Assembly: GCF_003670115.1 (NCBI RefSeq)
Contig: NZ_QQTY01000001.1
Coordinates: forward strand, 248,001-312,000
DNA length: 64,000 bases
Reading direction: 5' to 3'
Origin: Natronorubrum halophilum
GTDB taxonomy: Archaea > Halobacteriota > Halobacteria > Halobacteriales > Natrialbaceae
This document shows positions 31,231 through 50,810 of this stretch, piece after piece (the stretch's first letter is position 1; every line of letters starts with the position of its first letter). Position numbers and translations under genes: made by a program. The notes under the pieces were generated by a model, which saw only the letters and a program-made list of their open reading frames with translations, was not told the origin of the DNA and searched no databases.

Positions 31231-32409
31231 GTGTCACGAGATATCTTCGACGAGGCGGAGTACGAACGGCGGGTGAATCGGACGAAAGAACGGTTACGCG
31301 AGGAGGAACTCGACGCCATCGTCGTTTCCGACCCGGCCAACATGAACTACCTCACGGGGTACGACGGCTGGTCGTTCTACGTCCATCAGGCCGTCATCGT
31401 CACGCCGGACCACGAGGAACCGGTCTGGGTCGGCCGCGAGATGGACGCGGGCGGCGCGCGCGCGACGACCCACCTGTCCGAACCCAACGTTCTCACCTAC
31501 AGCGACGATCACGTCCACTCGCCGCACGACCTCCATCCGATGGACTACGTCGCGGGCGTCCTCGAGGACCTCGACGTCGAAGACGGGCGTATCGGGCTCG
31601 AGATGGACGCCTCCTACTTCACCGCGAAGTCCTACACCCGACTCCAGCAAAACCTCCCCGACGCCGAGTTCGAGGACGCGACGCTACTGGTCGGCTGGGT
31701 CCGAATCAAGAAGTCCGAGCGGGAACTCGAGTACATGCGCGAGGCGGCCCGCATCTCGGAGAACGCGATGCGGGCCGGCCTCGATACGATCGAGGAGGGC
31801 GTTCCGGAGTACGAAGCCGCGGCCGAGATCTACGAGGCGCTGATCACCGGCACCGACGAGTACGGCGGCGACTACCCCTCGATCGTCCCGCTGATGCCCT
31901 CGGGCGACCACACGGACACCCCGCACCTCACGTGGACCGACCGTCCGTTCGAGGACGGCGACCCGGTCATCATCGAACTCTCGGGCTGTCGCCACCGATA
32001 CCACTCCCCGCTCGCGCGGACGATGTTCGTCGGCGACCCGCCCGAGGAACTCGAGCGAACCGCCGATATCGTCGTCGAGGGGATCGAAACCGCCCTCGAC
32101 GTCGCCGAACCGGGCGTCACCTGCGAAGCCGTCGAAACGGCCTGGCGCGAAACCATCGCGCAGTACGGTCTCGAGAAGGAGGATCGAATCGGCTACTCGA
32201 TGGGGCTTGGCTACCCGCCGGACTGGGGCGAACACACCGCGAGCATCCGGCCCGGCGACGAGACGGTACTCGAGGAGAACATGACGTTCCACATGATCCC
32301 CGGCATCTGGACGGAAGCGGTCGGCATGGAGATCAGCGAAACGTTCCGCGTCACGTCCGACGGGGCGGAAACGCTCGCCGACTTCCCGCGACGACTGTTC
32401 ACGACATAA
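31231..32409 (+). CDS. doeA: Ectoine hydrolase (DoeA/EutD), M24 creatinase-like
   Basis: 392 aa from the GTG at 31231. The pattern [21 protein letters not shown], the [14 protein letters not shown] segment, [52 protein letters not shown] and [13 protein letters not shown] are those of DoeA-type proteins. DoeA opens the ectoine ring to N-acetyl-diaminobutyrate. The M24 metal ligands are changed (Glu249 for the first Asp; no Asp before LART), as expected for the metal-independent creatinase branch. It is followed 25 bp later by a Glu/Leu-type dehydrogenase gene. Other M24 amidohydrolase activity is possible, but the whole-length match favours DoeA. Confidence 0.82.
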
Positions 32410-32434
32410 CGACCACTTCGCACTCACCCTACCA

Positions 32435-33721
32435 ATGACTACGACACCAACGCAACAGGAGGCAGAACCGGACGACGATCTCGATTCGGCGCTCGTCACC
32501 GCCCGCCGACAGCTCGAGCGCGCGGCGACGCACGTCGATGTCGACCCCGGCGTTATCGAGCGCCTGAAACACCCGACCAAGGTCCAGCAGGTCTCGGTTC
32601 CCCTCGAGCGCGATGACGGCTCCGTCGACGTCTTCACCGGATACCGCGCCCAGCACGACGACGTCCGCGGGCCCTACAAGGGCGGACTGCGATACCATCC
32701 CGAGGTATCCGCCGAGGAGTGTACCGGCCTCTCGATGTGGATGACCTGGAAGTGCGCCGTGATGGATCTCCCCTTCGGCGGCGGAAAGGGCGGTATTTCC
32801 GTCGATCCCAAAGCGCTGACCGAGGACGAGACCGAACGGCTCACGCGCCGGTTCGCCGAAGAGCTGCGCGACGTCGTCGGGCCGACGAAGGACGTTCCGG
32901 CACCGGACATGGGTACCGACGCCCAGACGATGGCCTGGTTCATGGACGCCTACTCGATGCAACAGGGCGAGACCATTCCCGGCGTCGTCACCGGTAAGCC
33001 GCCCGTCGTCGGCGGCTCCTACGGCCGCGAGGAGGCACCGGGACGCTCGACAGCGATCGCCGCTCGAGAGGCCGTCGACTACTACGACCGCGACCTCTCG
33101 AACACGACGGTCGCCGTCCAGGGATTCGGGAGCGTCGGCGCTAACGCCGCTCGCCTGCTCGAGGACTGGGGTGCGACAGTCGTCGCCGTCAGCGACGTCA
33201 ACGGCGCGATCTACGACCCCGGCGGCCTCGCGATCCACGAGATCCCGACCCACGAGGAGGAACCCGAAGCCGTCCTCGCACAGGACGCACCGGAAACGAT
33301 CTCGAACGCGGAGATCCTCGAACTCGACGTCGACGTGTTGATCCCGGCCGCCGTCGGGAACGTCATCACGGCGGACAACGCGGACGCCATCGCGGCCGAC
33401 ATCGTCGTCGAGGGTGCGAACGGCCCGACCACGTTCGCCGCCGACACCATCCTCGAGGAACGCGATGTCGCCGTGATTCCCGACATTCTCGCCAACGCCG
33501 GCGGGGTGACGGTGAGTTACTTCGAGTGGCTCCAGGACATCAACCGCCGCCAGTGGTCGCTCGAGCGCGTCAACACGGAACTCGAAGAACACATGCTCGA
33601 GGCCTGGGCGGACGTCCGCGAGGAAGTCGAGGAGAAGGACCTGGCGTGGCGCGACGCCGCCTACGTCGTGGCGCTGTCGCGGATCGCCGAGGCGAAGGCG
33701 ACGCGCGGGCTCTGGCCGTAA
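32435..33721 (+). CDS. Glu/Leu/Phe/Val dehydrogenase
   Basis: 428 aa. The Lys of [13 protein letters not shown] and Asp of [17 protein letters not shown] form the substrate site. The NAD(P) fold is [20 protein letters not shown] and [16 protein letters not shown] are family hallmarks. It interconverts glutamate (or another amino acid) and its 2-oxo acid. Cotranscribed with doeA, it could regenerate 2-oxoglutarate for the transaminases and release ammonium (inference). Haloarchaea have several paralogs and coenzyme choice is unknown. Confidence 0.9.
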
Positions 33722-33869
33722 TTTCCGCCGGCCGGCTATCGTCACCCCGTTCTCTCGACACCCGTCTACGCGACCGACCGGGGGAATTGCGCGTTCGTCT
33801 TCGAGAGTCGCTTGCTCGAGGAACACCGTCGGTACCGACGACAGACGGTCACTCGATCGAAGTTTGTGG

Positions 33870-34209
33870 TCAGCGTCGCTCGATACCGATATACGCACCG
33901 AGCTGTCCAACGACATCGTCGACGAGCGACTCGTCGAGCGTGCCGAGCTCACGATCGATTCGAGTCGTCTCGACCGATGCGACCGCCCACGGGAGAATGG
34001 AACTGTCCTTCGGGAGACCACCGCCGATGATATCGTCGTCGTCGATCGGAACGCGCTCGTCGTACCACATTTTCGTCGAGAGCGTGAGTGCGATGTACTG
34101 GTCGCCGTGAAACGGCCGCATCCGTTCCGATAATCAGCCACGGTCGACTCGCATCGTCGCCCTTAAACGGATCATCCGCGAAGACGATCGTCCCTCGCTC
34201 GTGCGTCAT
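33870..34209 (-). pseudogene. PemK/MazF-like toxin gene, frameshifted
   Basis: The first frame gives MTHERGTIVFADDPFKGDDASRPWLIIGTDA. A second frame then gives PFHGDQYIALTLSTKMWYDE and continues to SSILPWAVASVE and the end at 33870. The span of 340 bp is 113 codons plus one base, and a net +1 shift in the GGCC run at 34114-34117 explains it. Intact relatives cleave RNA. The start overlaps the stop of the upstream HTH gene (ATGA), the usual toxin-antitoxin arrangement. Lesion or sequencing error cannot be separated here. Confidence 0.75.
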
Positions 34210-34709: not shown

Positions 34710-37700
34710 TTACTCCGCCGACAGCGCCGCCGAAACCTTCTCGATCGGATGCGGTGGATCGCCGCAGCCGTCGTACGTCGACAGCTGCGACCGACAGGAA
34801 GCTCCGGGCGCGACGACAGTTTCGCCGTCGCTCGAGTCGATCTGATCGAACAGCACCTCTCCGATGGCTCGACTCAGCGAGTAGTGTTCGGCCTCGTAGC
34901 CGAAGGAGCCGGCCATGCCGCAACAGCCCGAATCGAGCGCGTCGACCTCGTAGCCGACGGTCTCGAGGACCGTCGCCGCGTGGCCGTCCTTCTTCGTCGC
35001 CTTCTGGTGGCAGTGGCCGTGGTAGGTCAGGCGCTCCTCGAGTCCGCCGTCCCCGGTCGGCAGTCGATCAGCCAGATCGAACCGCTCTACGTACTCCATG
35101 ACGCCGTAGGTGTTCGCCGAGATCCGTTCCACGTCGCGCCCGGAAAGCAGGTCCAGGTAGTCCGACTGGAGCATTACGGCGTCCGAGGGCTCGACCAGGA
35201 CGACCTCCCAGCCGTCCTCGACGGCCGGCGTCAGCGCGTCGACGTTCGTCCGAGCGCGCTCCCGGGAAACGTCGAGGAAGCCCTTCGAGTGCGCCGGCCG
35301 GCCGGTCGACGTCACGCCCTCGGGAATCCGGACGTGGACGCCCGCCGTCTCGAGGACCTGCACGGCAGCCTTCCCGGCTCGCGGGTGGTTGTAGTTCGTG
35401 TACGTATCCGGGAAGAGCAACACCTTCCGGTCGGCGTCCGCTTCCGAAACCTTCGGCCCGCGCTTTGCGAACCAGTCCTCGAAGCTCTCGCTCGCGAACG
35501 TCGGCAGGTCGCGCTCGCGGGCGATCCCGACCGTTTTTTCGGCGATCGTTCCGACACCCGGCAGCGAGGCCGCCCAGTTCGAGAGCGGTGCGAGCGCGGA
35601 GCCGACGGCGTTCAGTCGGTCGACGTTCGCGAACAGCTTGTCCCGGAGGCTCGAGCCGTGTTCGCGGTGGTGGGCGTGTTCGACTTCGGCCTTGAGCTTC
35701 GCCATGTCGACCTCGCTCGGACAGTCCCGCGCACAGCCCTTGCAGCCGATACAGAGGTCCATCACCTCGGCGACGAACTCCTCGTCGGTGGGGTCGACCT
35801 CGAGTTCGCCGTCCATCGCCCCCCGGAGCATGTTCGCCCGGCCGCGGGTGCTCAGACTCTCCTCTTCGGCCGCGCGATACGTCGGACACATCACGCCGCC
35901 GGTCGTCGCCTGGTCGCCGCGGCAACCGCCACAGCCGTGACAGAGTTCGACCATGCCCTGCATGCCGTTGTCGGTGTCCCACTCGAGGGCGGGTTCGAAC
36001 CCCGCGTCGAACTCGTAGTTGGGCGAGAACCGGAGGTGCTCCGTCATGTCGTGGTCGCCACAGACGTTCCCCGGGTTCAACAGCCAGTCCGGATCGAACG
36101 CCGTCTTGAGGTCGCAAAAGAGCGACCAGACGTCGTCGCCGTACAGTTTCCGATTCCACTGCGTTCGGGCGCGGCCGTCGCCGTGCTCGCCCGACACGCT
36201 CCCGCCGTACTCGACGACGAGGTCGGTCACCGCGTCCGAAATCGCCTCGAACTGGTTCAGCCCGGCCGGACTCTTGGTGTCGACCAGCGGTCGCATGTGC
36301 ATACAGCCCGGTCCGGCGTGGGCGTAGAAGCTCGCGAACGTGTCCTGTTCCTCGAGGACCGCTTGAAAGTCGGCGACGTAGTCCGCGAGGTTCTCGGTCG
36401 GGACGGCCGTGTCCTCGATGAAGGAGATGTGCTTCGCGTCGGACGTCCGCGACAGAAGGATTGGCGCGGCGCTCTTCCGAAGTTTCCAGAGTTCCGCCTT
36501 CCCCTCGGCGTCGTGGGCCTCGAGGGCGTCGAAAGCGCGGACGGGGTCGCGCCCGGCGGTCACGTTTCCGTCGCCGTCCGCGTCGCTCGCATCGGCCGTC
36601 GGATCGGGCACGTCCTCGTCTGGGAGCCGATCCCGGAGCAGTTCCGCGACCTGCTCGCGGCCGTTTTCGTCGCCGTCGCCGTAGAACTCGACCAGCAGTG
36701 CCGTCTCGGTATCGGCGGGAAGCCGGTCGGCCACGGCGGCGAACTCCTCCGTCTCTCGAGCGAGATCGAGCAACACGTCGTCGATCGCCTCGATCGCCGC
36801 CGGATCGTGCGTCCGGACGATGGTGTCGACGTCCGCCATCGCCTCGAGCAGGTCGTGGTAGGTCAGGAGGGCGACGGAGGTGGTCTCGGGGACGGTCTCG
36901 AGCGAGAGGGTCGCCGCCGTCACGATGCCGAGGGTCCCTTCGCTGCCGGCGAAGACGCGCGCGAGGTTGACCGTCGCGTCGGGATCGGGTTCGTCGTCGG
37001 TCACGACCGATTCGTCGGTGTTTTCGTCGAACCCGGTCGGATTGCCGTAGGCCTCCGCAACCAGTCGGTCGAGGTTGTACCCCGACACGTTGCGCTTCAG
37101 TTGCGGGAACACCTCCCGGATCGCGTCGGCTTCCTCGTCGATCACGCGACGCAGGGCCTCGTGGATCCGCTCGAGCAAGTCGCCCTCCGGATCGGCCCGT
37201 TCGCGAAGCTCCGCGACCGATAGCTCGCCGAAGCGCTCGACGGAGCCGTCGGCGAGGACGACTTCGACCGCTTCGACGTACGCATCCGTCTTGCCATACT
37301 GCAGCGAGTGCGCGCCGGTGGAGTTGTTGCCGATCGCCCCGCCAACGGTACTACGGTTCCCGGCGGCGGGATCGGGCGCGAACTTCAGATCGTGGGGGGC
37401 GAGCGCGTCGTTGAGATCGGCGAGAATCGTACCCGCCTGGACGGTCGCTCGTCGCTCGCCAGGGTTGAGCGAGCACAACTCGTCCATGTGCGTCGTGAGA
37501 TCGAGAACGACGGCCTCGTTGACCGCCTGTCCGGCGAGACTGGTCCCGCCGCCGCGCGGGAGGACCGGAACCCCGTGCTCGGCGCAGTACTCGACGACGT
37601 TCGCGATGTCGGCCGTCGATCGCGGCAACACGACGCCGACGGGCGTCATCTCGTAGGCGCTGGCGTCGGTCGCGTACAGCCGTCGGCTGTACTCGTCGAA

Positions 37701-37904
37701 CCGGACCTCGCCGTCGACGCGCTCGCGCAGCGCCGACACGAGTTCGGGTCGGTCGATGTCGCCGCCGACGTAGTCGTAGTTCGCCCGAGCGTCCGCCGCC
37801 GGATCGCCCTCGCGCGGATCGTCCGGCGGCCCGAGATGGCTCTCGTCCGGGGTCGACGTCTGGTCGCTGTGGTCGGTCGTCGACGGCGAGTTATCGGTAG
37901 CCAT
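34710..37904 (-). CDS. FAD-linked oxidase / Fe-S / CCG-domain fusion (D-2-hydroxyacid dehydrogenase-like)
   Basis: 1064 aa. An FAD_binding_4 domain (LPRGGGTSLAGQAV; DPAAGNRSTVGGAIGNNSTG; FAGSEGTLGIVTAATL) is followed by an FAD-oxidase C domain (HISFIEDTAVP, SGEHGDGRART), then Cys-rich Fe-S motifs (CHGCGGCRGDQ, CIGCKGCARDCP) and a CCG domain (HGHCHQKA, CCGMAGSFG). Such fusions oxidise D-lactate, D-2-hydroxyglutarate or similar acids and pass electrons to the membrane. The gene starts 4 bp after a D-2-hydroxyacid dehydrogenase gene and is cotranscribed with it. Confidence 0.88.
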   Translation of the reverse strand: MATDNSPSTTDHSDQTSTPDESHLGPPDDPREGDPAADARANYDYVGGDIDRPELVSALRERVDGEVRFDEYSRRLYATDASAYEMTPVGVVLPRSTADIANVVEYCAEHGVPVLPRGGGTSLAGQAVNEAVVLDLTTHMDELCSLNPGERRATVQAGTILADLNDALAPHDLKFAPDPAAGNRSTVGGAIGNNSTGAHSLQYGKTDAYVEAVEVVLADGSVERFGELSVAELRERADPEGDLLERIHEALRRVIDEEADAIREVFPQLKRNVSGYNLDRLVAEAYGNPTGFDENTDESVVTDDEPDPDATVNLARVFAGSEGTLGIVTAATLSLETVPETTSVALLTYHDLLEAMADVDTIVRTHDPAAIEAIDDVLLDLARETEEFAAVADRLPADTETALLVEFYGDGDENGREQVAELLRDRLPDEDVPDPTADASDADGDGNVTAGRDPVRAFDALEAHDAEGKAELWKLRKSAAPILLSRTSDAKHISFIEDTAVPTENLADYVADFQAVLEEQDTFASFYAHAGPGCMHMRPLVDTKSPAGLNQFEAISDAVTDLVVEYGGSVSGEHGDGRARTQWNRKLYGDDVWSLFCDLKTAFDPDWLLNPGNVCGDHDMTEHLRFSPNYEFDAGFEPALEWDTDNGMQGMVELCHGCGGCRGDQATTGGVMCPTYRAAEEESLSTRGRANMLRGAMDGELEVDPTDEEFVAEVMDLCIGCKGCARDCPSEVDMAKLKAEVEHAHHREHGSSLRDKLFANVDRLNAVGSALAPLSNWAASLPGVGTIAEKTVGIARERDLPTFASESFEDWFAKRGPKVSEADADRKVLLFPDTYTNYNHPRAGKAAVQVLETAGVHVRIPEGVTSTGRPAHSKGFLDVSRERARTNVDALTPAVEDGWEVVLVEPSDAVMLQSDYLDLLSGRDVERISANTYGVMEYVERFDLADRLPTGDGGLEERLTYHGHCHQKATKKDGHAATVLETVGYEVDALDSGCCGMAGSFGYEAEHYSLSRAIGEVLFDQIDSSDGETVVAPGASCRSQLSTYDGCGDPPHPIEKVSAALSAE

Positions 37905-37908
37905 TCGC

Positions 37909-38886
37909 TTAGCTCGAGTCCGGTTGGTAGACCGCGTTCTCGAGGTCGTCGCCCTCGCCGGCCTCGAGCGCGCTCACGTTGTTCGCGACGATGTCGGCCA
38001 ACCGCTCCCAGTGTTTGGGCGTGTGGCCGCCCGTGTGGGGGGAGATCAGGCAGTTCTCGAGGTCCCAGAGCTCGTGGTCGTTGGGCAGGGGCTCGGGATC
38101 GGTGACGTCGAGGGCTGCGCCGCGAATCCCGTCGAACTGCAGCGCCGAGACGAGCGCGTCGGTGTCGATGATGCCGCCGCGGGCCGCGTTGACGACGACC
38201 GCGTTCGGCGGCAGCGTCGCCAGCGCGTCTTCGTCGACGAGGTTGCGCGTCAGATCGTTGAGCGGGCACGCGAGCACGACGTACTCGCTTCGCGAAAAGG
38301 CCTCGTGGATATCCTCCGCCTCGAAGCTCAGCACTTCGTCGGTCGGTCCGCCCTTCGACGGCGTGTAGCGGATCCCGATCGTCTCGACCTCGAACCCCTC
38401 GAGTCGCTGGACGATCTCCTGACCGATCGAGCCGAGACCGACGACCGTCACGGTGCTGTCCGTGAACTCGTGGGACTGGAAGTGGCGCCACTCGTTGTTC
38501 GCCTTGCGTCGCCAGCCCTCGTGGAGGTTCCGCGCGAAGACGAGCATGTTGGCGATCGACTGTTCGGCGATGCCGGGGGCGTGGATGCCACCCGCGTTGG
38601 TGACGGCGACACCGTGGTCGGCCAGCGCGTCCATCGGGACGTGGTCGGTGCCGGCGAACGTACACGCGAACAGTTCGAGCCGGTTCGCGCGCTCGAGAAG
38701 ATCTTCCTCGATCGTGATGCCCGTCACGACCCGCGCCCGGGGCACGAGTTCGCGCTCTTCGGCGGGCGTTCGCGCGAGCGCGACGGTGTGGTTCGGCAGG
38801 CGCTCGCGCAAGGTTTCGGCGTACGACTCCATCGACAGACCTTCCGTCCCCTCTCGGAGGACGACGACGTCTGGGTTCGTGCTCAT
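37909..38886 (-). CDS. D-isomer-specific 2-hydroxyacid dehydrogenase
   Basis: 325 aa. NAD-binding VVGLGSIGQEI, catalytic Arg in NAARGGIIDTDAL, Glu in DVTDPEPLP and His in ISPHTGGH are all present. It reduces a 2-oxoacid to a D-2-hydroxyacid or the reverse. It is divergent from the M20 amidohydrolase gene, with a shared 128-bp promoter region carrying the motif described at 38955. With the downstream flavoprotein it could form a 2-hydroxyacid shuttle (inference). Confidence 0.88.
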   Translation of the reverse strand: MSTNPDVVVLREGTEGLSMESYAETLRERLPNHTVALARTPAEERELVPRARVVTGITIEEDLLERANRLELFACTFAGTDHVPMDALADHGVAVTNAGGIHAPGIAEQSIANMLVFARNLHEGWRRKANNEWRHFQSHEFTDSTVTVVGLGSIGQEIVQRLEGFEVETIGIRYTPSKGGPTDEVLSFEAEDIHEAFSRSEYVVLACPLNDLTRNLVDEDALATLPPNAVVVNAARGGIIDTDALVSALQFDGIRGAALDVTDPEPLPNDHELWDLENCLISPHTGGHTPKHWERLADIVANNVSALEAGEGDDLENAVYQPDSS

Positions 38887-38985: not shown

Positions 38986-39014
38986 TAAGTCGCTGGGGCG
39001 CGTCAGTGACCCGC

Positions 39015-40337
39015 ATGAACGAGCCGATACGCGACCGCCTCGTGACCCTCCGTCGGAGTTTGCACCGCCACCCCGAGCCGGCGTGGCGCGAGTTCTACAC
39101 GACGGCCCAACTCGTCGAGGAGATCCGAGCCATCGGCGTCGACGAACTCGCCGTCGGGCCGGACGCCTACGACCCCGCCGATCGGATGGCCGTTCCCGAG
39201 GACCACCGACTCGCATCGTGGGACCGCCGCGCTCGCGAGCGCGGCGCCGATCCAGATCTGCTCGAACGAATGGCCGGCGGCAACACCGGTGCCGTCGCCG
39301 TCCTCGAGCGCGGCGAGGGACCCGCCATCGGCCTCCGGGTCGATATCGACGCGCTGTTCATCGAGGAGTCTGACGAAACGGGACACGATCCGGCCACCGA
39401 GGGCTTTCGCTCGGAGATCGAGGGGACGATGCACGCCTGCGGCCACGACGCCCACATGACCTGGGGGCTGGCCGCCCTCGAGGCGATCGCGGAGAGCGAC
39501 TTTTCCGGGCAACTGGTCGTCTTCTTTCAGCCCGCCGAGGAGACGAGCGGCGGGGGGTGTCCGATGGCGAGGAGCGAGTTCGCCGAGGACTTGGACTACC
39601 TGCTGGCGATCCACGTCGGCCTCGATCATCCGACGGGCGAAGTCGTGGCGGGCATCGAGAAACCACTCGCCATGTGCCACGTCGACGCCACGATCACGGG
39701 GACCTCCGCGCACGCGGGGAAGGCACCGAACGAAGGCGATAACGCGATGCACGCCATGGGGACGGCGATCGAGAACGCCTACGGTATCCCCCGCCACAGC
39801 GACGGGATGACCCGGGTGAACATCGGCTACGCCGAGGCCGGCTCCGCGAGCAACGTCATCGCCGAGGAAGCCCACATGGAGGCCGAAGCGCGCGGCGAGA
39901 CCACCGAACTGATGGAGTACATGAAGGACCGACTCGAGCGAACGGTCACATCCGCCGCGACGATGCACGGCTGTCGGGCCGACGTCGAGGTCGTCAGCGA
40001 GTCGCCGCGAGCCGACAGCGATCCCGAACTCCAGACCCTCGTCAGCGAGGTCGCGAGCGGCGTCGACGGAATCGATCGCGTGGTGCCGGCCGCCGACTTC
40101 GGCGCGAGCGAGGACGCGACGTTCCTGATGGAGCGCGTACAGCGAGACGGCGGGCTGACGACGTACATGATCGTCGGCACCGACCACCCGACGAGTCACC
40201 ACACGCCGACGTTCGACGTGGACGAGGCGAGCCTCGAGCACGGCGTCGACGTTCTCGTCGAATCGATCCGCGAACTCGAGCGGCGGCACCCGGTTCCACG
40301 CGTCGAGGACTCGGAGCACGCGGAGGGCGATAGATGA
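39015..40337 (+). CDS. M20 family amidohydrolase / deacylase
   Basis: 440 aa; an in-frame GTG at 39006 is an alternative start. The M20 metal site is visible in GLRVDIDALF, HACGHDAHMTWG, PAEETSGGG and SHHTPTFDVDE; a dimerisation domain is in between (SAHAGKAPNEGDNAMHA). The family removes acyl groups from amino acids. In this island it could replace the usual aspartoacylase-type DoeB and deacetylate N-acetyl-diaminobutyrate (inference). It overlaps the next gene by four bases. A close paralog is encoded at 46240. Confidence 0.85.
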   Translation: MNEPIRDRLVTLRRSLHRHPEPAWREFYTTAQLVEEIRAIGVDELAVGPDAYDPADRMAVPEDHRLASWDRRARERGADPDLLERMAGGNTGAVAVLERGEGPAIGLRVDIDALFIEESDETGHDPATEGFRSEIEGTMHACGHDAHMTWGLAALEAIAESDFSGQLVVFFQPAEETSGGGCPMARSEFAEDLDYLLAIHVGLDHPTGEVVAGIEKPLAMCHVDATITGTSAHAGKAPNEGDNAMHAMGTAIENAYGIPRHSDGMTRVNIGYAEAGSASNVIAEEAHMEAEARGETTELMEYMKDRLERTVTSAATMHGCRADVEVVSESPRADSDPELQTLVSEVASGVDGIDRVVPAADFGASEDATFLMERVQRDGGLTTYMIVGTDHPTSHHTPTFDVDEASLEHGVDVLVESIRELERRHPVPRVEDSEHAEGDR

Positions 40338-41572
40338 GTCGCCGACTCGTCACCCCCGAGGACGTCGAGACGGCTCGAAAGCGGATCGACGACGTCGTCC
40401 ACCGCACGCCCCTCGACACCTCGCGAACCTTCGCCGAACTGAGCGGTGCCGACTCCCTGGGGCTCAAACTCGAGAACGTCCAGCGAACGGGCTCGTTCAA
40501 GATCCGCGGCGCGTACAACACGATGGCCCAGCTCGCTCCCGAGGAGCGCGAGGCGGGCGTCATCTCCTCGAGCGCGGGCAACCACGCGCAGGGGGTCGCA
40601 CTGGCCGGTAACCTGCTCGATATCGACACGACGATCGTCGTTCCGGCGGTGACGCCCGCGGCGAAGATCGAGGCCACCCGCGGCTACGGTGCCGAGGTCG
40701 TCGTCGAGGGCGACATCTACGAGCGCTCCTACGAGTACGCCCTCGAGCGCGCCGAGGAAACGGGCGAGACGTTCGTCCACCCCTTCGACGACGAGGCGAT
40801 CATCGCCGGGCAGGGGACCATCGGCCTGGAGTTGCTAGAGCAATATCCCAGCATCGACACCGTCCTCGTCGCCATCGGCGGCGGCGGGCTGATCTCGGGT
40901 ATCGGGACGGTGTTGAAGGCTCGCGATCCGAATACTCGCGTGATCGGCGTCCAGCCGGCGGGTGCGTCTCACGCGAAGCCGTCGCTCGAGGCCGGCGAGA
41001 TTCGGGAACTCGAGGACGTCGACACCGTCGCGGAGGGGATCGCCGATACGCGCATGCTCGAGACCACGTTCGCGAACGCTCGCGAGGTCGTCGACGACGT
41101 GGTGAGCGTCAGCGACCGCGAGATCGCCGCCGCCGTGACGCTGCTCGCGGAACGCGCGAAGACCGTCGCCGAGAGCGCCGGTGCGGCACCGCTTGCGGCC
41201 GCGCTGTCGGATTCGGTCGGACTGGACCTCGGGGGCGAGCACGTCGGCGTCGTGATCTCGGGGGGGAACGTGAACCTCACCGAACACGCCGAACTGACCC
41301 GGACCGGACTGTACGAACTCGAGCGCTACGCCGAGGCGAGGCTGGCCGTCGCGGGGTGGCCGACGACCGTCGGTGCCATCGTCGAGGCCGTCGAAGCCGA
41401 GGGTGCCGAACTGGACGTCCTCGAGCGCGCCCGACGCGGCGCGGTCGACGAGCCGAATCGAGTTCCGGTGACCGTGGGACTCGAGGGCAGCGGCCCGGAG
41501 CATTTGGACGGCGTGCTCGAGACACTTTCCGAACTCGAGGGGGTTTCCGTGGTCGAACGCTCGCTCGCATAA
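40334..41572 (+). CDS. Threonine ammonia-lyase-like PLP enzyme (EutB/IlvA type)
   Basis: 412 aa. Fold-type II PLP enzyme: Schiff-base Lys in TGSFKIRGAYN, SSSAGNHAQGVA, IGGGGLISGIGTVLKA and VISGGNVN. A C-terminal ACT-like domain of about 85 residues follows. It deaminates threonine or serine to 2-oxo acids. In bacterial ectoine clusters the homolog EutB handles the hydroxyectoine branch. Tight coupling to an M20 deacylase favours an EutB-like role, but ordinary IlvA is the alternative. Confidence 0.83.
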   Translation: MSRRLVTPEDVETARKRIDDVVHRTPLDTSRTFAELSGADSLGLKLENVQRTGSFKIRGAYNTMAQLAPEEREAGVISSSAGNHAQGVALAGNLLDIDTTIVVPAVTPAAKIEATRGYGAEVVVEGDIYERSYEYALERAEETGETFVHPFDDEAIIAGQGTIGLELLEQYPSIDTVLVAIGGGGLISGIGTVLKARDPNTRVIGVQPAGASHAKPSLEAGEIRELEDVDTVAEGIADTRMLETTFANAREVVDDVVSVSDREIAAAVTLLAERAKTVAESAGAAPLAAALSDSVGLDLGGEHVGVVISGGNVNLTEHAELTRTGLYELERYAEARLAVAGWPTTVGAIVEAVEAEGAELDVLERARRGAVDEPNRVPVTVGLEGSGPEHLDGVLETLSELEGVSVVERSLA

Positions 41573-42009: not shown

Positions 42010-43371
42010 TTACGCGGCCTTCGCGCTCGGGCCGACGGCGTCGATCGCCTCGAGGAAAATATCGATCCCGAACGCGATTTCGCGCTCGCTCGAGTCCAGC
42101 GGCGGGAGCAGCCGGATCGTCTTTTTCCCGCAGCCGAGCGTCAGCAGGCCGCGCTCGAGCGACGCCTGAACGACGGCGGTCCGTCGCTCGGGGGTGTCGA
42201 ACTCGACGGCGAGCATGAGCCCTTTTCCGCGCACGTCCTCGACGTACTCCGGCGAGTCGTCGCGCAGCAGTTCCTTCGCCTGTTCGCCGCGCGTCGTGGC
42301 GTTGTCGAGCAGGTCGTACTCGTCGATGGCCTCGAGAGTGAACGTGCCCATCATCGAACCGAGCAGGTCGCCGCCGCCGAAGGTCGACCCGAGCCGGTTC
42401 TTCTCGCTGGGGAAGATCTCGGAGCGCGAAATCGTCGCGCCGACGCGCAGGGCCTTCGCGCTGGCGATGACGTCGGGTTCGATCGGGTAATGATCCGAGG
42501 CCCAGATCTCGCCGGTGCGACCGACGCCGGACTGGATCTCGTCGACGACGAGCGGAATGTCGTACTCGTCGGTCACGTCCGCCACCTCCTGCATGAACGC
42601 CTCGCTGGGGAAGCGGTAGCCGCCGACGCCCTGAATCGGCTCGAGGGTGAGGAACGCGATTTCCTCGGGGTTGATGTGGCCGCCTTCGGGCGACAGCGAG
42701 TTGCGAAGCTGCGAGCCACCGTCGGTGAAGAAACCGCAGTCACAACTCGCGGGGTCACAGCCGCGGTCCGCACAGAACGGCACCGTCTCGATCCCGGCGA
42801 TTTCGGGGTAGTGGCGCGTGTAGACCTCCTTGGACTTCGTGATCGAGAGCGTGCCGAAGGTTCGGCCGTGGAAGCTTCCCGCGAAGGCGATGCCGTACTT
42901 CGAGGGCGCGCGGTAGTCGTTCGTGATCTTCATCGCGTTCTCCATGGCCTCCGCCCCGGAGTTCGAGAGGAAGACCGTGTCCATCCCGTACTGGCTCGAG
43001 ACGTCGGTCAGTTTCTCCATGAGGTGACTCGAGCCGGGAACGGTCGTGTCCTCGGGGCTCGGACCGGCGCCGAAGTACATGTCCTGACCGGCGATCTTCA
43101 TCGGTTCGACGAGATCGAACTCCCGGAACTTCTCGAGGATCTTCTCGTTGTTGTAGCCGAGCGGCGCGGCACCGATGTGACAGGTGAAATCGAGCAAGAC
43201 GTTTCCATCGACGTCCGTGACGAAGGGGCCGTCGGCCTCGCGGGTGATGTCCCAGACGAACTCGTGGGAGTACTCGCTCGGCGCGGCGTTCTTCCCGTGA
43301 AACGCGACCCATTCGCGAGCGTTGGGGCCGGGGAAGGCGTCCACGCTCGGTTCGGCAGTGTCCCTATCCAT
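42010..43371 (-). CDS. Class-III aminotransferase
   Basis: 453 aa. PLP fold-type I: SNSGAEAMENAMK, AFAGSFHGRTFG, EPIQGVGGY and DEIQSGVGRTG. The position of the usual catalytic lysine reads ASAKALRVGATIS, so it lies in SAKAL. It resembles archaeal 4-aminobutyrate and broad-specificity omega-transaminases. An internal Cys-rich insertion (CADRGCDPASCDCGF) could bind metal. A role in transaminating diaminobutyrate or another amine from osmolyte breakdown is inference. An ACACA-N5-TGTGT palindrome touches its start. Confidence 0.87.
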   Translation of the reverse strand: MDRDTAEPSVDAFPGPNAREWVAFHGKNAAPSEYSHEFVWDITREADGPFVTDVDGNVLLDFTCHIGAAPLGYNNEKILEKFREFDLVEPMKIAGQDMYFGAGPSPEDTTVPGSSHLMEKLTDVSSQYGMDTVFLSNSGAEAMENAMKITNDYRAPSKYGIAFAGSFHGRTFGTLSITKSKEVYTRHYPEIAGIETVPFCADRGCDPASCDCGFFTDGGSQLRNSLSPEGGHINPEEIAFLTLEPIQGVGGYRFPSEAFMQEVADVTDEYDIPLVVDEIQSGVGRTGEIWASDHYPIEPDVIASAKALRVGATISRSEIFPSEKNRLGSTFGGGDLLGSMMGTFTLEAIDEYDLLDNATTRGEQAKELLRDDSPEYVEDVRGKGLMLAVEFDTPERRTAVVQASLERGLLTLGCGKKTIRLLPPLDSSEREIAFGIDIFLEAIDAVGPSAKAA

Positions 43372-43455: not shown

Positions 43456-45090
43456 TCAGTCGTCGTCGCCCGGCTCCGCGGTCGTCGTCGGCTCGTCGGA
43501 TTTGCTTTTCGCCGATCCGTAGATGACCGTCTCCTCCTGGAACAGCACCCGTCCGTTGGTGCCGCTCAAGTTCTTGATCAGCGAGAGCATCGCGAGGAAG
43601 CAGACGATCGCGAACGGCGCGCCGGTGATGACGACCGCTTGCTCGAGCGCGCCGGTGCCGTCCTGACCGCCGAGGATCATCAGGATCGCGGCGGTCAGGC
43701 CGAGGACGATACCCCAGAAGACCCGGTTGATCGTCGACGGCGACTCCTTGCCGCCGGTGGTCATCATCGAGACGGCGAGCGTCGAGGAGTCCGCCGACGT
43801 GATGAAGAACGTCGTCACGAGGACGAGGAACGCGACCATGAGTATCGCACCGAACGGCAGGGCGTCGAACAGGATGAAACCGGAGACTTCCGCACCCGCG
43901 TCTCCGGCGATGACCGCGCCGAAGTCCGCAGCAGCCGTGTCCTGCAGGTAGACGGCGGTACCGCCGACGAACGTGAACCACGGGATCGTCGCCGCGGAGG
44001 TCGCCACGATGCCGGTGAAAGCGACCTCGCGGATGGTTCGTCCCTTCGAGATGCGGGCGATGAACAGCCCGGCGAACGGGGACCACGAGAGCGCCCACGC
44101 CCAGTAGAAGACGGTCCAGTCTTCGACCCAGGTGGTGCCGCCCTCGCCGGCGCCGGTGTAGAGGCTCATCGTCACGAAGTCGCCGATCATCCCGCCCATC
44201 GCCTGCGAACCGAGCAGCAAGAGGAACATCGACGGACCGAGGATGAACGTCGCGAGCATGAGCACGACGAACAGGCCCATGTTGAAGTTCGAGAGGCGGC
44301 GGATCCCCCTGTCGACTCCCAACACCATCGAGAACGTAAACAGGATCGTCATCGTCGTCACCACGACCAGCACCCCGATATCACCGAAGTTGAGTCCCCA
44401 CTGGTACTCGAGGCCGCTGATGAACTGACTCCCGATGAAGCCGAGCGAGGTCGCGACGCCGCCGATCGTCGCGAACACGGCGAGGATGTCGATGACTTTC
44501 GCGACCGGCCCATCGAGGTTCTCCTTCCCGAGAATCGGCGTCAGGGCCGACGAGACGCGCAGTGGCACGCCGTCGTAGTTGTACGCGAAGTAGCCGATCG
44601 CGATGCCCATGATCGTAAACACCGCGAGCTGGGGCAGCGCCCAGTGGAACAGCGTCTGCTGGATCGCGTACGGTACCGCTTCGCTCGTGCTCCCTTCGAC
44701 GCCGAACAGTGGATTGGGATCGGCGTAGTAGAACAGTCCTTCGGTCGGCCCCCAGAACACGACGCCCGCGGCGAATCCGGCCGAGTACAACATCGAGAAA
44801 AACGAGATGAAGCTGTACTCCGGATCCTCGTCGCCCAGCTTGAGTCGTCCCCACGGACCGACGATCAAGTACAACAGGAAGACGACGATCAGGAACACGA
44901 TCACCAGCAACGCCCAGCTCATGTAGCTGAGCATCTCCCCGTGCACGGTATCGATTCCGCTGGCGACGAAATCGCGATCGATGAAGAACGCGACGATCAC
45001 GCCGATCGTCAACAACGCTCCGAACAGGAAGACGACCGGATCGAGTTCGTCGAAGAAACGACGGACCATCCCCTGTTCGCTGTTACTCAT
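43456..45090 (-). CDS. BCCT family transporter (betaine/ectoine type)
   Basis: 544 aa with 12 TM segments. The BCCT signature is FYWAWALSWSPFAGLFIARISKGRTIREV. The canonical W-W-x-x-W tryptophan group has Ala at the second Trp position. BCCT carriers import betaine, carnitine, choline or ectoine, usually with Na+. Lying between the aminotransferase and M20 genes, it is the likely uptake system for the island's substrate. N- and C-terminal tails are short, so osmosensing by a long tail is not evident. Confidence 0.9.
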   Translation of the reverse strand: MSNSEQGMVRRFFDELDPVVFLFGALLTIGVIVAFFIDRDFVASGIDTVHGEMLSYMSWALLVIVFLIVVFLLYLIVGPWGRLKLGDEDPEYSFISFFSMLYSAGFAAGVVFWGPTEGLFYYADPNPLFGVEGSTSEAVPYAIQQTLFHWALPQLAVFTIMGIAIGYFAYNYDGVPLRVSSALTPILGKENLDGPVAKVIDILAVFATIGGVATSLGFIGSQFISGLEYQWGLNFGDIGVLVVVTTMTILFTFSMVLGVDRGIRRLSNFNMGLFVVLMLATFILGPSMFLLLLGSQAMGGMIGDFVTMSLYTGAGEGGTTWVEDWTVFYWAWALSWSPFAGLFIARISKGRTIREVAFTGIVATSAATIPWFTFVGGTAVYLQDTAAADFGAVIAGDAGAEVSGFILFDALPFGAILMVAFLVLVTTFFITSADSSTLAVSMMTTGGKESPSTINRVFWGIVLGLTAAILMILGGQDGTGALEQAVVITGAPFAIVCFLAMLSLIKNLSGTNGRVLFQEETVIYGSAKSKSDEPTTTAEPGDDD

Positions 45091-45503: not shown

Positions 45504-46151
45504 TCAGTTCGTGATGTCCTCGAGTTGCCGGTCGCGCTCCGCGGCGCTCTCGGTTACCCGTTCGCCGAACTCGTCGACGCGGTCTTTGATCTCCTCGCGC
45601 GTCGCCTCGGGCGAGAACGTCTCCGACATCGTCAACAGCCGAACGAACGCGCGGAGTTCCTCGTCCGTAAGCTGGGCGAACTCCTCGTTCTCGAGTTTCT
45701 CGACGACCTCGTCGACGTCGATCTGGCCGACCGGTTTGACGTTGAACTCGACGTTCACCATCCGATAGTTCGAACCGGCGAGTTGCTGTTCGGCCTTCCC
45801 GACGCCCTCCGAGAGCATGTCCTTGAACGGCGTGTGATAGCCCATCGTTCCGAGATGGAGGAAGGCGAGCATGTCGGTGATTCCCTGCGTGTAGGCGTCG
45901 CGCCCCTCGTCGTCGGGGTCGAAGACCGTATTCAGGTCACGTTCTTCCAGATACTCGAAGAGGATGCTGAAATCGAGAACCGCGTTGCGAACCCGGCGTC
46001 GAATCCGGTTTCGCTTCTGTTTTTTCGAATGATCCGTGTAGTCCGTTTTCCGGCCGAGCAGGAAATCACGGTCGGAGGGCGTGAGAATTCCGCGCGGTCG
46101 ATCCGAGTCCGCCGCCGTTCGTAACGACTCCGGCACGTCATCCTGGCTCAT
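45504..46151 (-). CDS. Conserved haloarchaeal protein of unknown function
   Basis: 215 aa, soluble, highly charged, starting MSQDDVPESLRTAADSDRP. It contains a SDRDFLLGRKTDYTDHSKKQKRNRIRRRVRNAVLDF segment (basic helix), then an acidic helical body and an ending rich in Glu/Arg helices. I know no assigned function. It is encoded between the BCCT and the second M20 gene on the same strand, probably with its own promoter. Confidence 0.7.
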   Translation of the reverse strand: MSQDDVPESLRTAADSDRPRGILTPSDRDFLLGRKTDYTDHSKKQKRNRIRRRVRNAVLDFSILFEYLEERDLNTVFDPDDEGRDAYTQGITDMLAFLHLGTMGYHTPFKDMLSEGVGKAEQQLAGSNYRMVNVEFNVKPVGQIDVDEVVEKLENEEFAQLTDEELRAFVRLLTMSETFSPEATREEIKDRVDEFGERVTESAAERDRQLEDITN

Positions 46152-46239: not shown

Positions 46240-47520
46240 CTAGGGCCGCCGTCGGGAGAGTTCGACCGCGGTATCGGCGAGCACCGACACGCCGATCTCG
46301 AGGCTCTCTTCGTCGATATCGAACGTCGGCGTGTGGTGGCTCGTCGGGTGGTCCGACCCGACGAGGACGTACGACGCCAACCCGTTGTCACTTTGGACGC
46401 GCTCCATCAGGTAGGTGACGTCTTCGCTCGCGCCGAAGTCGGTCGTCGGAACCACCGACTCGACCCCCGAAATCTCCCAGGCTACGTCGCCGACGAGCGC
46501 CCGGAGCGCCGGATGGCTGTCGACGCGCGGCGACTCCCCGAGGACCCGCGGCGTGACGTCGCAATCGTGCATCTCGGCGGCGGCGTACAGAACGCGCTCG
46601 AGTTCCGTCCGAGTGTACTCCATCAGCGCCGTCGTCTCGCCGCGGACTTCGGCCTCGAGCGACACCTCCTCGGCGATGACGTTGCTCGCGGTGCCGCCTT
46701 CGATCTGCCCGACGTTCACGCGGGTCATCCCGTCGCTGTGACGGGGAATCGCGTACGCGTTCTGGATCGACGTCGCAGCCGCCTGCATCGCGTTCGCGCC
46801 CGCGTTCGGCGCTTTGCCGGCGTGGGCGCTCGCCCCTTCGAACGTCGCGGTGAGGTGCGCCATCGCCAGTGGCTTTTCGATCCCGGCGACGATCTCGCCG
46901 GTCGGATGGTCCAGACCGAGGTGGACCGCGAGGAGGTAGTCGACGTCGTCGAGATAGCCGCCCGCGGCCATCGCCTTGCCGCCGCCGGAGATCTCCTCTG
47001 CGGGCTGGAAGAACACCTTCAACGTCCCCGTAAAGTCGCTGTGTTTGACGGTCTCTATGGTTCCGAGCCCCATCGCGACGTGAGCGTCGTGGCCGCAGGC
47101 GTGCATGTAGCCGTCGTGTTCGGATCGAAAGCCTTCGGCGGCCGGTCGGTGGTCGTCGGCAGCCGATTCCGTCATCGAGATCGCATCGAGATCGACGCGC
47201 AACCCGATACAGGGGCCCGAGCCCTGCTCGAGGACCGCCACGACGCCCGTGTGACCCCCGTCGGTGCGCTCGAGAATGTCCGACCGAACCCCCGCCTCGC
47301 GCGCTCGCTCGAGCCACGGCTCGAGTTCCGTCTCCGACGGGACGGCCATGCGCTCGTCGGTCGCCAGCGACTCGCGACCGACGGCGATCTCGTCGACGCC
47401 GAGCCGCTCGAGTTCGTCGACGACCCGAGCCGTCGTCTGGAACTCGCGCCAGCCGGGTTCCGGGTGACGGTGGAACGCCCGCCGTAAGTCGCGCAATCTG
47501 GTGGGCAGATCGTAGGACAT
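46240..47520 (-). CDS. M20 family amidohydrolase / deacylase, second copy
   Basis: 426 aa, close paralog of the 39015 product: LRRAFHRHPEPGWREFQTTARVV at the N-terminus, GLRVDLDAI, HACGHDAHVAMG, QPAEEISGGG, SAHAGKAPNAGANAMQA and SHHTPTFDIDEE. All M20 metal ligands are present. Two deacylases on one island may split the alpha- and gamma-N-acetyl-diaminobutyrate isomers or act on different acyl amino acids (inference). Confidence 0.85.
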   Translation of the reverse strand: MSYDLPTRLRDLRRAFHRHPEPGWREFQTTARVVDELERLGVDEIAVGRESLATDERMAVPSETELEPWLERAREAGVRSDILERTDGGHTGVVAVLEQGSGPCIGLRVDLDAISMTESAADDHRPAAEGFRSEHDGYMHACGHDAHVAMGLGTIETVKHSDFTGTLKVFFQPAEEISGGGKAMAAGGYLDDVDYLLAVHLGLDHPTGEIVAGIEKPLAMAHLTATFEGASAHAGKAPNAGANAMQAAATSIQNAYAIPRHSDGMTRVNVGQIEGGTASNVIAEEVSLEAEVRGETTALMEYTRTELERVLYAAAEMHDCDVTPRVLGESPRVDSHPALRALVGDVAWEISGVESVVPTTDFGASEDVTYLMERVQSDNGLASYVLVGSDHPTSHHTPTFDIDEESLEIGVSVLADTAVELSRRRP

Positions 47521-48345: not shown

Positions 48346-48396
48346 CGAGTCGAGAGTGCCACCCACGAGAACACGACAGTAGATTACAACGATACG

Positions 48397-48912
48397 ATGT
48401 CCACGAATACGTCACCGACCGACTCGCCGTCGAACGAACCGTCTCCGTCCGAACAGTCGTCGACGCCGCCCGGCCCGGCACTCTTGGCCGAGCGATCGCT
48501 GCTCGGCATCTTCGTCCACTTCTTCGCGATCGTTCCGTTGTGGGGCGTTCTCGTCGCCGGACTGGTGTACCGGTTCTCGAGTCACGAGTTCACTCGAGCC
48601 AACGCGCGAAACGCCTTCAACTGGCAACTGCTCGTCACGGGATCGATCGCGGCGACGTTGCTCGGGGTGTTCGGCCTGTCGGCACTGGTCGACCGAGTCG
48701 CTCTGCCCGGATTGATCGAAACCCTCGTCTTCCTTCCAGTGCTCGCTGTCATGATCCTCATGTTCGCGCTCACGTGGCTGAACTTCATCTTCCCGTTCGT
48801 CGCGATGGGAAAGGCGATCTTCGGTGGCGCGTGGAACTACCTGTTCGTCCCCGATTTCCTCCGACTCGTCGCGACACGCACGCGATTCGGGCAGAAATAT
48901 AGTAACAACTGA
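48397..48912 (+). CDS. DUF4870 family membrane protein
   Basis: 171 aa: a Ser/Pro-rich N-terminus, then four hydrophobic segments with HFFAIVPLWGVLVAGLVYRF, RANARNAFNWQL (family signature) and LTWLNFIFPFVAMGKAI. Function unknown. The last codons and the stop (YSNN-stop) fall inside the left inverted repeat of the MITE-like element starting at 48898, so the natural C-terminus may have been altered by that insertion. Confidence 0.75.
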   Translation: MSTNTSPTDSPSNEPSPSEQSSTPPGPALLAERSLLGIFVHFFAIVPLWGVLVAGLVYRFSSHEFTRANARNAFNWQLLVTGSIAATLLGVFGLSALVDRVALPGLIETLVFLPVLAVMILMFALTWLNFIFPFVAMGKAIFGGAWNYLFVPDFLRLVATRTRFGQKYSNN

Positions 48913-48981
48913 AACGATTTACACACTGATCGTACAGCTGTCGTGCGATCAGCTGTGCATTGACGTTCAGTGGCTACTATA
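48898..48981. repeat. MITE-like inverted-repeat element, copy A
   Basis: The termini read TATAGTAACAACTGAAACG... and ...GTTCAGTGGCTACTATA, forming imperfect inverted repeats of about 35 bp around a short centre (ACAGCTGTCGTG). The element lies between two convergent genes and covers the stop codon of the DUF4870 gene. Related copies are at 57875 and 58876. Confidence 0.7.
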
Positions 48982-48997
48982 GTGTGCGAGGTGAGTC

Positions 48998-49387
48998 TTA
49001 GCCGAGGTACGCGATCGCGTCCAACTCGACGCGAACGTCCTCGGGCAGCCGCGAGACCTCCACGCAGACGCGCGCTGGCGGTTCCTCGTCGAACTTCGCG
49101 CCGTAGGCCTCGTTGACCGCGTCGTAGTCCTCGAGATCGGTCAGATAGACGGTGACTTTGACGACGTCGGCGAGGCCGTCGCCGCCGGCTTCGTCGACGA
49201 CGGTCGCGATGTTCTCGAGTACCCGATCGGTTTGCTCTTGAACATTGCCGTCGACGACCTCGCCGGTTTCGGGATCGACGGGGCCGTAGCCGGAGACGTA
49301 GCACGTGTCGCCGGCGCGGACGCCCTGCGAATAGGGGTTGTCGTTGCTCGGTGCGCCGTCGGTTTCGATGGGGTCTGTGTCGGACAT
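48998..49387 (-). CDS. RidA family enamine/imine deaminase
   Basis: 129 aa. The RidA signature is PARVCVEVSRLPEDVRVELDAIAYL, with the substrate-binding Arg in ARVCVEV; SGYGPVDPETGEVV and NIATVVDEAGG match the family. RidA hydrolyses reactive 2-aminoacrylate-type intermediates from PLP enzymes. It lies 40 bp after the class-III aminotransferase gene on the same strand and would protect against the imines made by the dehydratase and transaminases of the island. Confidence 0.9.
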   Translation of the reverse strand: MSDTDPIETDGAPSNDNPYSQGVRAGDTCYVSGYGPVDPETGEVVDGNVQEQTDRVLENIATVVDEAGGDGLADVVKVTVYLTDLEDYDAVNEAYGAKFDEEPPARVCVEVSRLPEDVRVELDAIAYLG

Positions 49388-49427
49388 GGTGAACTCGAAA
49401 TTCGGATCCGAGACCGAGACGACCGGT

Positions 49428-50810
49428 TCAGGCCGCCTGAGTCGCGTCGGTAGTCGCGTGTTCGATCGCCTCGACCACGATATCGAGCGCCGTTTCCGCC
49501 AGATCGTGCGTGAGCACGAGCGGCGGCAGGAATCGAAGGACGTTGCCGTGTCGGCCGGCCGTCCAGATCAGGACGCCGCGCTCGAAGCAGTACTGCTGGA
49601 TCGCGTCGACGACGTCGCCGTCGGGCGCACCGGTTTCGTCGACGAACTCGGCCCCGATGAACAGCCCCTCGCCGCGGATCTCGGCGAGGCGGTCGGTTTC
49701 GTCGGCGGCATCGCGAAGCCGGCCCCGAATGTATTCGCCGAGTTCGCGCGCGTGTTCGAGCAGGTCGTGTTCCTGAATGTACTCGATGGCGCGGGTGCCG
49801 GCTCGCATGCCGACGACGTGGCCGCGGTAGGTGCCGGCGTGGTCGCCCGGACCCCACGTGTCGAGGTCCTCGTGGTACATCGTCGCCGACAGCGGGAAGC
49901 CGACGCCGCCGAGCGCCTTGGCGGAGGTCATCACGTCCGGCGTAACGCCCGCCCAGTCACTGGCCCACCACTCGCCGGTGCGGCCGAGCCCGCTTTGAAT
50001 CTCGTCGAAAACGAGGACGACGTCGTTGTCGGTCGCGATCTCGCGAAGCCCGCGGAGGAACCCGTCCGGCGGGGTGATGATCCCGCCCTCGCCCTGGATC
50101 GGTTCGACGATGATCCCCGCCGGGTTAGCCAGCCCGCCGTAGGGATCTTCCACGATGGCCCGAACCTCCTCGAGCGCGTGATCGACGGCCTCCTGGGGCG
50201 TCTTGTCCTGCCGGAACGGGTACGGATACGGCGCGTGAACGACGTCCGAAAGCAGCGGCGTGTAGTGGCCCTTGAACTTCTTGTTCGAGGTGACGCTCAT
50301 CGCGCCCGTCGTCGCGCCGTGATAGGCACCGCGGAACGCGATGAGGCCGTCGCCGCCCGTGTTGTATTTCGCCAACTTGATCGACGCCTCGATGGCGTCG
50401 CTGCCGGTCGGGCCGCCGAAGACGACCTTGTTCCGGTCCCGTAGCCCGGCGGGCGCGATCTCGTTGAGTTTCTCGATCAACTCGAGGCGCGCTTCCGTCG
50501 GAAAGTCGACCGTGTGGACGAACTTGTCCGCCTGCTCGTGGACGGCCTCGAGCACGTAGGGGTTCGAGTGCCCGACGTTGAGCACGCCGATCCCCGCAAA
50601 GAGATCGATGAAGGTGTTTCCGTCGGCGTCGCGAACCGTCGCGCCCTTCCCTTCCTCGAAGGCGATGGGAATATCGTCCGGGTACGCGACCGCGTTGCTG
50701 TCGATTTCGTCCTGTTTCTCGAGCAGCGCTCGGGTGTTCGGCCCGGGGACGGAGTCGACGTTCGGTGCGTCGTCGAAGTGAATGTCGTCGATCGGCGGTC
50801 CTGCCGTCAT
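49428..50810 (-). CDS. Class-III aminotransferase, diaminobutyrate transaminase-like (DoeD/EctB type)
   Basis: 460 aa. Fold-type I motifs are [62 protein letters not shown] and the catalytic Lys in TSAKALGG. The [10 protein letters not shown] stretch is characteristic of 2,4-diaminobutyrate:2-oxoglutarate transaminases. In ectoine breakdown DoeD converts diaminobutyrate to aspartate semialdehyde. A strong Shine-Dalgarno (GAGGTGA) precedes the start, unlike the leaderless neighbours. RidA follows in the operon. Confidence 0.85.

Follow-up and report, generated by a model that had tools for sequence, protein, structure and literature searches.

A stretch of 64,000 nucleotides from Natronorubrum halophilum (referred to as the window here) holds, between positions 31231 and 50810, an island of genes around a homologue of the ectoine hydrolase DoeA/EutD. 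This island is a real, conserved gene unit, and the families of its proteins suggest that it probably serves as a system for scavenging and degrading ectoine, with hydroxyectoine as a probable second substrate. It contains two AbgA-like M20 amidohydrolases, one of which may stand in for the canonical deacetylase DoeB/EutE. The host genome has a size of 4.67 Mb and is haloarchaeal, judging from its relatives.

Ectoine hydrolase homologue and conservation of the island

The protein encoded at 31231 had been called a DoeA-type hydrolase in the original prediction, and profile scores, phylogeny and motifs bear this out. It reached 466 bits with the ectoine hydrolase profile TIGR02993 (ectoine_eutD), 234 bits with NF038259, a second DoeA model, and 112 bits with the archaeal PepQ model; its best solved relative is DoeA (PDB 6twk, 387 bits), the best prolidase scoring 110 bits. 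The same prediction had proposed a phylogeny against Xaa-Pro peptidases as a check. In a tree of 36 M24 proteins, which includes five other M24 proteins of the host genome and has several long branches, the 31231 protein falls inside the DoeA/EutD group (fork of 31 rows, support 99/97) and apart from these five host proteins. A narrower fork of 28 rows (95/84), which includes the canonical DoeA, also holds it, and its own clade is haloarchaeal and stands next to EutD from Bacillota. The haloarchaeal EutD rows follow the DoeA motifs (a 16-residue stretch, RYHxPLxRT, PPDWGE, and FHxIPG), with small departures in a few of them, e.g., L106, L122, L123, and L125. Prolidase metal ligands have been lost in the DoeA lineage. 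All EutD-like rows carry a glutamate (E249 in the 31231 protein) aligned with E255 of DoeA, a residue that presumably has a catalytic role, and four of the five other host M24 proteins have an aspartate there. Judged by its sequence, the 31231 protein thus belongs to the DoeA/EutD ectoine hydrolase lineage and not to the Xaa-Pro peptidases.

To describe the distribution of the island, we sampled 391 genomes of the class and scored EutD as present at E ≤ 1e-60. This yielded 144 genomes with EutD, in 41 of 86 genera. From the search matches, 80 EutD loci (77 genomes) were hand-picked for spread and read, 55 of them with both halves (up to 40 kb), and an island gene was counted as present in a locus if it showed at least 50% identity and coverage of over half the query. 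The genes of the island in the window are as follows, with the number of these 55 loci that hold each gene.

31231-32409, + strand: ectoine hydrolase homologue of the EutD/DoeA lineage, M24 fold; assigned by profile, tree, and motifs
32435-33721, + strand: glutamate dehydrogenase GdhB, starting 25 bp past EutD; frequent accessory, 29/55
34710-37904, - strand: FAD/Fe-S oxidoreductase, D-2-hydroxyglutarate dehydrogenase (YdiJ)-like, 4 bp from the D-2-hydroxyacid dehydrogenase gene; frequent accessory, 27/55
37909-38886, - strand: D-2-hydroxyacid dehydrogenase; core, 51/55
39015-40337, + strand: M20a, M20 (AbgA-like) amidohydrolase, candidate deacetylase of N-acetyl-2,4-diaminobutyrate (N-acetyl-DABA); core, 51/55
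40334-41572, + strand: threonine ammonia-lyase (IlvA)-like dehydratase dependent on pyridoxal phosphate, overlapping M20a by 4 bp; core, 47/55
42010-43371, - strand: AT1, class III aminotransferase; core, 51/55
43456-45090, - strand: BCCT-family carrier, candidate ectoine importer; core, 51/55
45504-46151, - strand: conserved protein without assigned function, adjoining the BCCT gene; core, 48/55
46240-47520, - strand: M20b, second M20 (AbgA-like) amidohydrolase; 32/55
48998-49387, - strand: RidA imine/enamine deaminase; 43/55
49428-50810, - strand: AT2, class III aminotransferase, best NCBIfam match to a subfamily of diaminobutyrate transaminases, located 40 bp upstream of RidA; 46/55

Of the nine core genes, six or more were found at 50 of the 55 loci, spanning seven families, and the D-2-hydroxyacid dehydrogenase, M20a, AT1, and BCCT genes occur all four together at 49. 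The same genes are found in other orders in G276, G060, G045, and G213, which favors function over mere common descent as the explanation. Named copies of the island are plasmid-borne in Natrialba magadii, Halopiger xanaduensis, Halobaculum, Haloprofundus, and Haladaptatus, and two of these plasmid loci duplicate loci of the set (L040 is G242 and L041 is G088).

The genes listed in the original prediction are intact open reading frames (ORFs) at the positions given there, except for a misplaced proline dehydrogenase. The latter, at 51080-51973, falls beyond the interval that it was said to share, and only members of the family to which the host belongs have it as an island neighbor (16 of 55 loci); we therefore rejected it as a pathway member. 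Two other neighbors, the proteins at 30444 (22 loci) and 52004 (19 loci), are likewise restricted to this family. Conversely, the predicted gene list was incomplete, since the D-2-hydroxyacid dehydrogenase, the FAD/Fe-S protein and the protein at 45504-46151 also belong to the island. The nearest relative of the FAD/Fe-S protein is the D-2-hydroxyglutarate dehydrogenase YdiJ (509 bits, cut-off 1350). The 45504-46151 protein (215 amino acids) often lies beside the BCCT gene and has many invariant residues across islands; it had no Pfam match at E ≤ 0.001 and no NCBIfam match at E ≤ 1e-20, and its predicted structure is of low confidence (predicted local distance difference test, pLDDT, 55).

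Two side observations concern the surroundings of EutD. Upstream in the window, a gene that resembles sugar-nucleotide epimerases by its sequence (29369-30351, + strand) is broken across two frames (ORFs 29369-29974 and 29809-30351), owing either to pseudogene formation or to a sequencing error. Elsewhere, a second EutD-like protein (L125, at G328:C2:199642-200802; 58% identical) is encoded without the island and adjoins two IclR-type regulators, and copies resembling it, 55 to 56% identical, are present in G061 and G248.

M20 amidohydrolases at the proposed deacetylation step

The original prediction did not see the canonical deacetylase DoeB/EutE in the region. This absence extends to 40 island genomes, the host included, which were hand-chosen from the 144 genomes with EutD: none has a protein over the cut-off of TIGR02994 (402.7 bits), and weaker matches to this model, the best at 112 bits, occur in all 40. 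A close orthologue of M20a (E ≤ 1e-160), on the other hand, was found in 142 of the 144 genomes with EutD versus 5 of the 247 without, a threshold that was set after inspecting the (rounded) E-values and a count over genomes that are related and not independent. At stricter thresholds the figures were 136/144 versus 1/247 (1e-170) and 129 versus 1 (1e-180). The host encodes four M20 proteins of this kind, two of them being M20a and M20b. Both island proteins exceed the cut-off of the M20 amidohydrolase model TIGR01891 (248 and 279 bits, cut-off 153.75), and they have intact HACGHD, PAEE, HVG/HLG, and HH motifs, which we take to be the metal and catalytic motifs of M20 enzymes. They resemble an aminobenzoyl-glutamate utilization protein of known structure (3io1, 306 bits).

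M20 genes also occur at EutD loci of bacteria. Scanning genome contigs, we retained 80 named EutD loci (the best of 579), 8 of them haloarchaeal and 72 bacterial. All 8 haloarchaeal loci have an M20 gene, and none has DoeB. Among the 72 bacterial loci, 42 have M20 without DoeB, 14 have DoeB without M20, 16 have neither (some of them being short contigs), and none has both. In a separate observation, 28 Klebsiella plasmid records match EutD, and an example, L193, holds doeA, doeB, and ehu transporter genes. In a tree of 47 M20 proteins, those of archaea, from the island and from elsewhere, form one clade (98/99), separated from the M20 proteins of bacterial EutD clusters (100/100). These separate clades indicate that M20 enzymes were recruited to EutD clusters at least twice. 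We rejected an identity of the island M20s with DoeB2, an M20 deacetylase for which NCBIfam has a model (NF038260), given that they reach only 99 and 118 bits of the 550 of its cut-off and fall in a separate clade (100/100 fork). As to the predicted replacement of the deacetylase by M20, the tight partnership of M20 with EutD supports it, whereas the idea of an M20 deacetylase itself is not new, as DoeB2 and the frequency of M20 genes at bacterial EutD loci attest.

We therefore weighed the possibility that ectoine is degraded in these organisms with a distant protein of the aspartoacylase family, encoded elsewhere, as the deacetylase, the M20s acting on other N-acyl amino acids or peptides. 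The weak DoeB matches in all 40 island genomes and the greater similarity of the M20s to 3io1 than to DoeB2 are in line with it. However, none of these matches comes up to the DoeB cut-off, no aspartoacylase-type gene is among the recurrent island genes considered while M20 is, and DoeB and M20 are mutually exclusive at bacterial EutD loci, so that we regard a distant aspartoacylase as unlikely. We favor the reading that an AbgA-like M20 stands in for DoeB/EutE in the island, a role that we infer, substrate included, from sequence data.

Dehydratase, oxidoreductases, and the proposed pathway

The enzyme at 40334 had been described as EutB/threonine-dehydratase-like. The second half of this description fits better, the protein being nearer to threonine ammonia-lyase (TIGR01127, 378.2 bits, just short of the cut-off of 378.75), but an identity with EutB was rejected, as it scored 236 bits with TIGR02991 (cut-off 413.35) and 261 bits with PRK07476 (cut-off 413) and is placed apart from EutB in the tree. 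The island copies form a clade of their own (98/95). Since the host has three further IlvA-like proteins, 42 to 46% identical to the island copy, the latter need not be the host's ordinary threonine dehydratase. M20a and the IlvA-like gene were adjacent and on the same strand in all 47 fully read loci that hold both; together with their 4-bp overlap, this constant adjacency suggests that the two enzymes catalyze consecutive steps. Outside the window, the host locus G000:C3:422008-426031 echoes this pair, with another IlvA-like gene less than 2 kb from another M20 gene of the same clade. Near bacterial EutD loci, a RidA-like gene was found at 8 of the 42 with M20 versus 0 of the 14 with DoeB, and a D-2-hydroxyacid dehydrogenase at 4 of 42 versus 1 of 14.

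Further recurrent genes were sought among acidic ORFs only, in families that are present in at least five loci and have members mostly outside the known genes; the first 25 such families were considered, so that others may be missed. An aldehyde:ferredoxin oxidoreductase of the tungsten type (AOR; Pfam AFOR_N and AFOR_C) lies near EutD or AT2 at 17 of 83 distinct loci, and an aldehyde dehydrogenase was found at 7 loci without AOR, adjoining island genes at 5 of them. No locus has both, and most have neither. At least 34 of the 144 EutD genomes encode AOR no more than 20 kb away from EutD, a lower bound from best-match coordinates picked by eye. In a metagenome-assembled genome of Syntrophomonadaceae (L224), an EutD locus with M20 has an AOR homologue, 30% identical, 7.6 kb from EutD. 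Regarding regulators, the search for an EnuR-like protein covered only the scanned island genes and found none; IclR genes occur in the sequence read at 18 of 85 loci, some of them distant.

Family membership, conservation, co-occurrence, and the absence of DoeB are directly supported by these data, while the substrates and the order of steps in the following pathway are inferred throughout. No ectoine synthase was found over the cut-off in the 40 island genomes (two weak matches had 21 and 23 bits versus 27), which suggests that the solute would come from outside, brought in by the BCCT carrier. EutD would then open the ring to N-acetyl-2,4-diaminobutyrate, from which the AbgA-like M20 hydrolase, instead of DoeB/EutE, would take off the acetyl group. 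A class III transaminase, probably AT2, would convert the product to aspartate semialdehyde, with GdhB recycling glutamate, and the semialdehyde may be oxidized to aspartate by AOR or an aldehyde dehydrogenase, encoded near the island in some relatives and elsewhere in the host. M20a, the IlvA-like enzyme, RidA, the D-2-hydroxyacid dehydrogenase, and the FAD/Fe-S dehydrogenase could make up a side branch whose most likely substrate is hydroxyectoine. Here, a hydroxylated intermediate would be deacetylated and undergo beta-elimination to an imine or 2-oxo acid, RidA would hydrolyze the imine, and redox steps would follow, the two 2-hydroxyacid enzymes handling the 2-oxo acid. According to a 2018 review (PMC5924519), the EutABC steps had not undergone biochemical evaluation, DoeA yields alpha- and gamma-N-acetyl-DABA at a ratio of 2:1, with the gamma form apparently not used by DoeB, and some ectoine clusters hold a hydroxyacid dehydrogenase gene of undefined role. 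A fuller scenario, which is possible but which we hold more tentatively than a function in ectoine degradation as such, is that haloarchaea assembled their own ectoine/hydroxyectoine pathway round EutD, with M20 for DoeB, an IlvA-derived dehydratase plus RidA for EutB, and, in some lineages, AOR for DoeC. The two M20s may have split the work, between alpha- and gamma-N-acetyl-DABA or between the products of ectoine and hydroxyectoine.

Several observations weigh against a function in ectoine degradation or against single steps of the pathway. The 31231 protein stays under the curated TIGR02993 cut-off (466 versus 613 bits), as do other EutD copies (two haloarchaeal ones with 471 and 491 bits and that of Priestia, Bacillota, with 531 bits), so the name EutD is based on the tree and the motifs. 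At least one AbgA-like M20 (E ≤ 1e-140) is present in 349 of the 391 genomes. The island copies thus derive from an M20 that is general among haloarchaea and whose family has an older function of another kind, and the scores of the AbgA-like M20s on the DoeB2 model are low, as noted above. We found no DoeC-like gene or other gene dedicated to aspartate-semialdehyde oxidation in the island of the window. Similar AORs are widespread (272 of 391 genomes) and the host version (70% identical) is unlinked to the island, so that a role of AOR in the oxidation of aspartate semialdehyde is suggestive only; as a marker restricted to the island AOR was rejected, only its position near EutD or AT2 being informative. 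Finally, some EutD genes lack the island. Among the 55 fully read loci, EutD stands without any other core gene at G017, G310, and G308, and with M20a and BCCT only at G330. Among the 25 part-read loci, G308b and G328b have no core gene, G250 has BCCT only, and G087, G325, and G019 show no core gene, each in a truncated stretch.

An alternative reading is that the EutD homologue hydrolyzes another cyclic amidine or amino acid derivative and that the island serves a general catabolism of N-acylated or beta-hydroxy amino acids. The protein is only 48% identical to DoeA of the Sinorhizobium meliloti ectoine cluster, the M24 fold spans many activities, the M20s come from a general amidohydrolase group, and a 2-oxo acid pathway would be a good fit for the IlvA-like enzyme, RidA, and both 2-hydroxyacid enzymes. 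We nevertheless judge another substrate to be quite unlikely, given that the DoeA motifs are kept with small departures in haloarchaeal rows, that a halophilic member of the Bacillota has a very similar function list with EutB (see below), and that the transaminase type and the osmolyte-type carrier fit ectoine. A chance cluster of broad housekeeping amino acid genes near an M24 gene is hardly credible: the IlvA-like enzyme and the M20s do have relatives elsewhere in the host genome, but the retention of the core across seven families in partly different order, the co-occurrence of EutD with M20, and the several plasmid copies already contradict it.

Significance and comparison with known systems

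Ectoine is a major salt protectant and a bacterial product. Should haloarchaea consume it, archaea of brines and saline soils would feed on a bacterial product rich in nitrogen and carbon, and the presence of EutD in more than a third of the sampled genomes implies that the effect could be broad. The two domains would also have arrived at the same pathway with enzymes of separate origin, and reading the island in this way gives assayable roles to haloarchaeal M20s, an IlvA-like enzyme, and an oxidoreductase. The literature matches listed contain no experimental report on ectoine use by haloarchaea. The original prediction had considered an archaeal version of ectoine degradation with a replaced enzyme notable. 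Sequence analysis upholds the island and supports a replaced deacetylase, but putative haloarchaeal EutD clusters are already in print: a paper of April 2026 describes over 100 archaeal EutD hits and clusters with aminopeptidase, aminotransferase, and BCCT genes that are conserved between genera and that its authors term provisional, and it notes the lack of EutE and an amidohydrolase (abgB) in Bacillota (PMC13188858). Its main text does not use the terms M20, RidA, hydroxyacid, or threonine. An ectoine island in archaea is hence a published idea, and the fresher parts are the separate M20 recruitment and the oxidoreductase.

Compared with DoeA of known structure (PDB 6twk), the window protein shares the motifs, including the aligned glutamate, and differs in its score below the profile cut-off and in its haloarchaeal clade next to Bacillota. 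The eut/doe cluster on pSymB of Sinorhizobium meliloti (L045) likewise has an ectoine hydrolase, and related clusters also contain a transaminase and a succinate-semialdehyde-type dehydrogenase; however, DoeB, EutABC, and ABC transporter genes are present there and not among the window island genes scanned. On an accessory plasmid of the same species, L194 encodes an EutD-like protein, an ectoine ABC transporter, an M20, and an Asp/Glu racemase, with no annotated DoeB, and is an M20 variant inside the Alphaproteobacteria. DoeB2, at the Tsukamurella plasmid locus L192, provides a precedent for an M20 beside a DoeA-type hydrolase and a transaminase, again with no annotated DoeB at the locus, whereas the archaeal M20s score far below its model and belong to another M20 clade.

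Clusters from Bacillota (Priestia, Oceanobacillus, and Lentibacillus) share with the island EutD, an M20, a dehydratase, and an aldehyde dehydrogenase, and some also have a RidA-like protein and a D-2-hydroxyacid dehydrogenase. They differ in having M20s of another clade, EutB as the dehydratase, and a hydroxyacid dehydrogenase with an identity of only about 25%. In the Oceanobacillus locus L247, EutD is accompanied by a D-2-hydroxyacid dehydrogenase (on the opposite strand), a regulator, a succinate-semialdehyde dehydrogenase, a RidA-like protein, M20, and EutB, with a transaminase on the other side. Its EutB scores 422 bits (cut-off 413), and its RidA-like protein is 38% identical and has no NCBIfam match at E ≤ 1e-30. 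The function list of this locus is close to that of the archaeal island and is built from other subfamilies, which is our best hint that the IlvA-like enzyme may do a EutB-like job.

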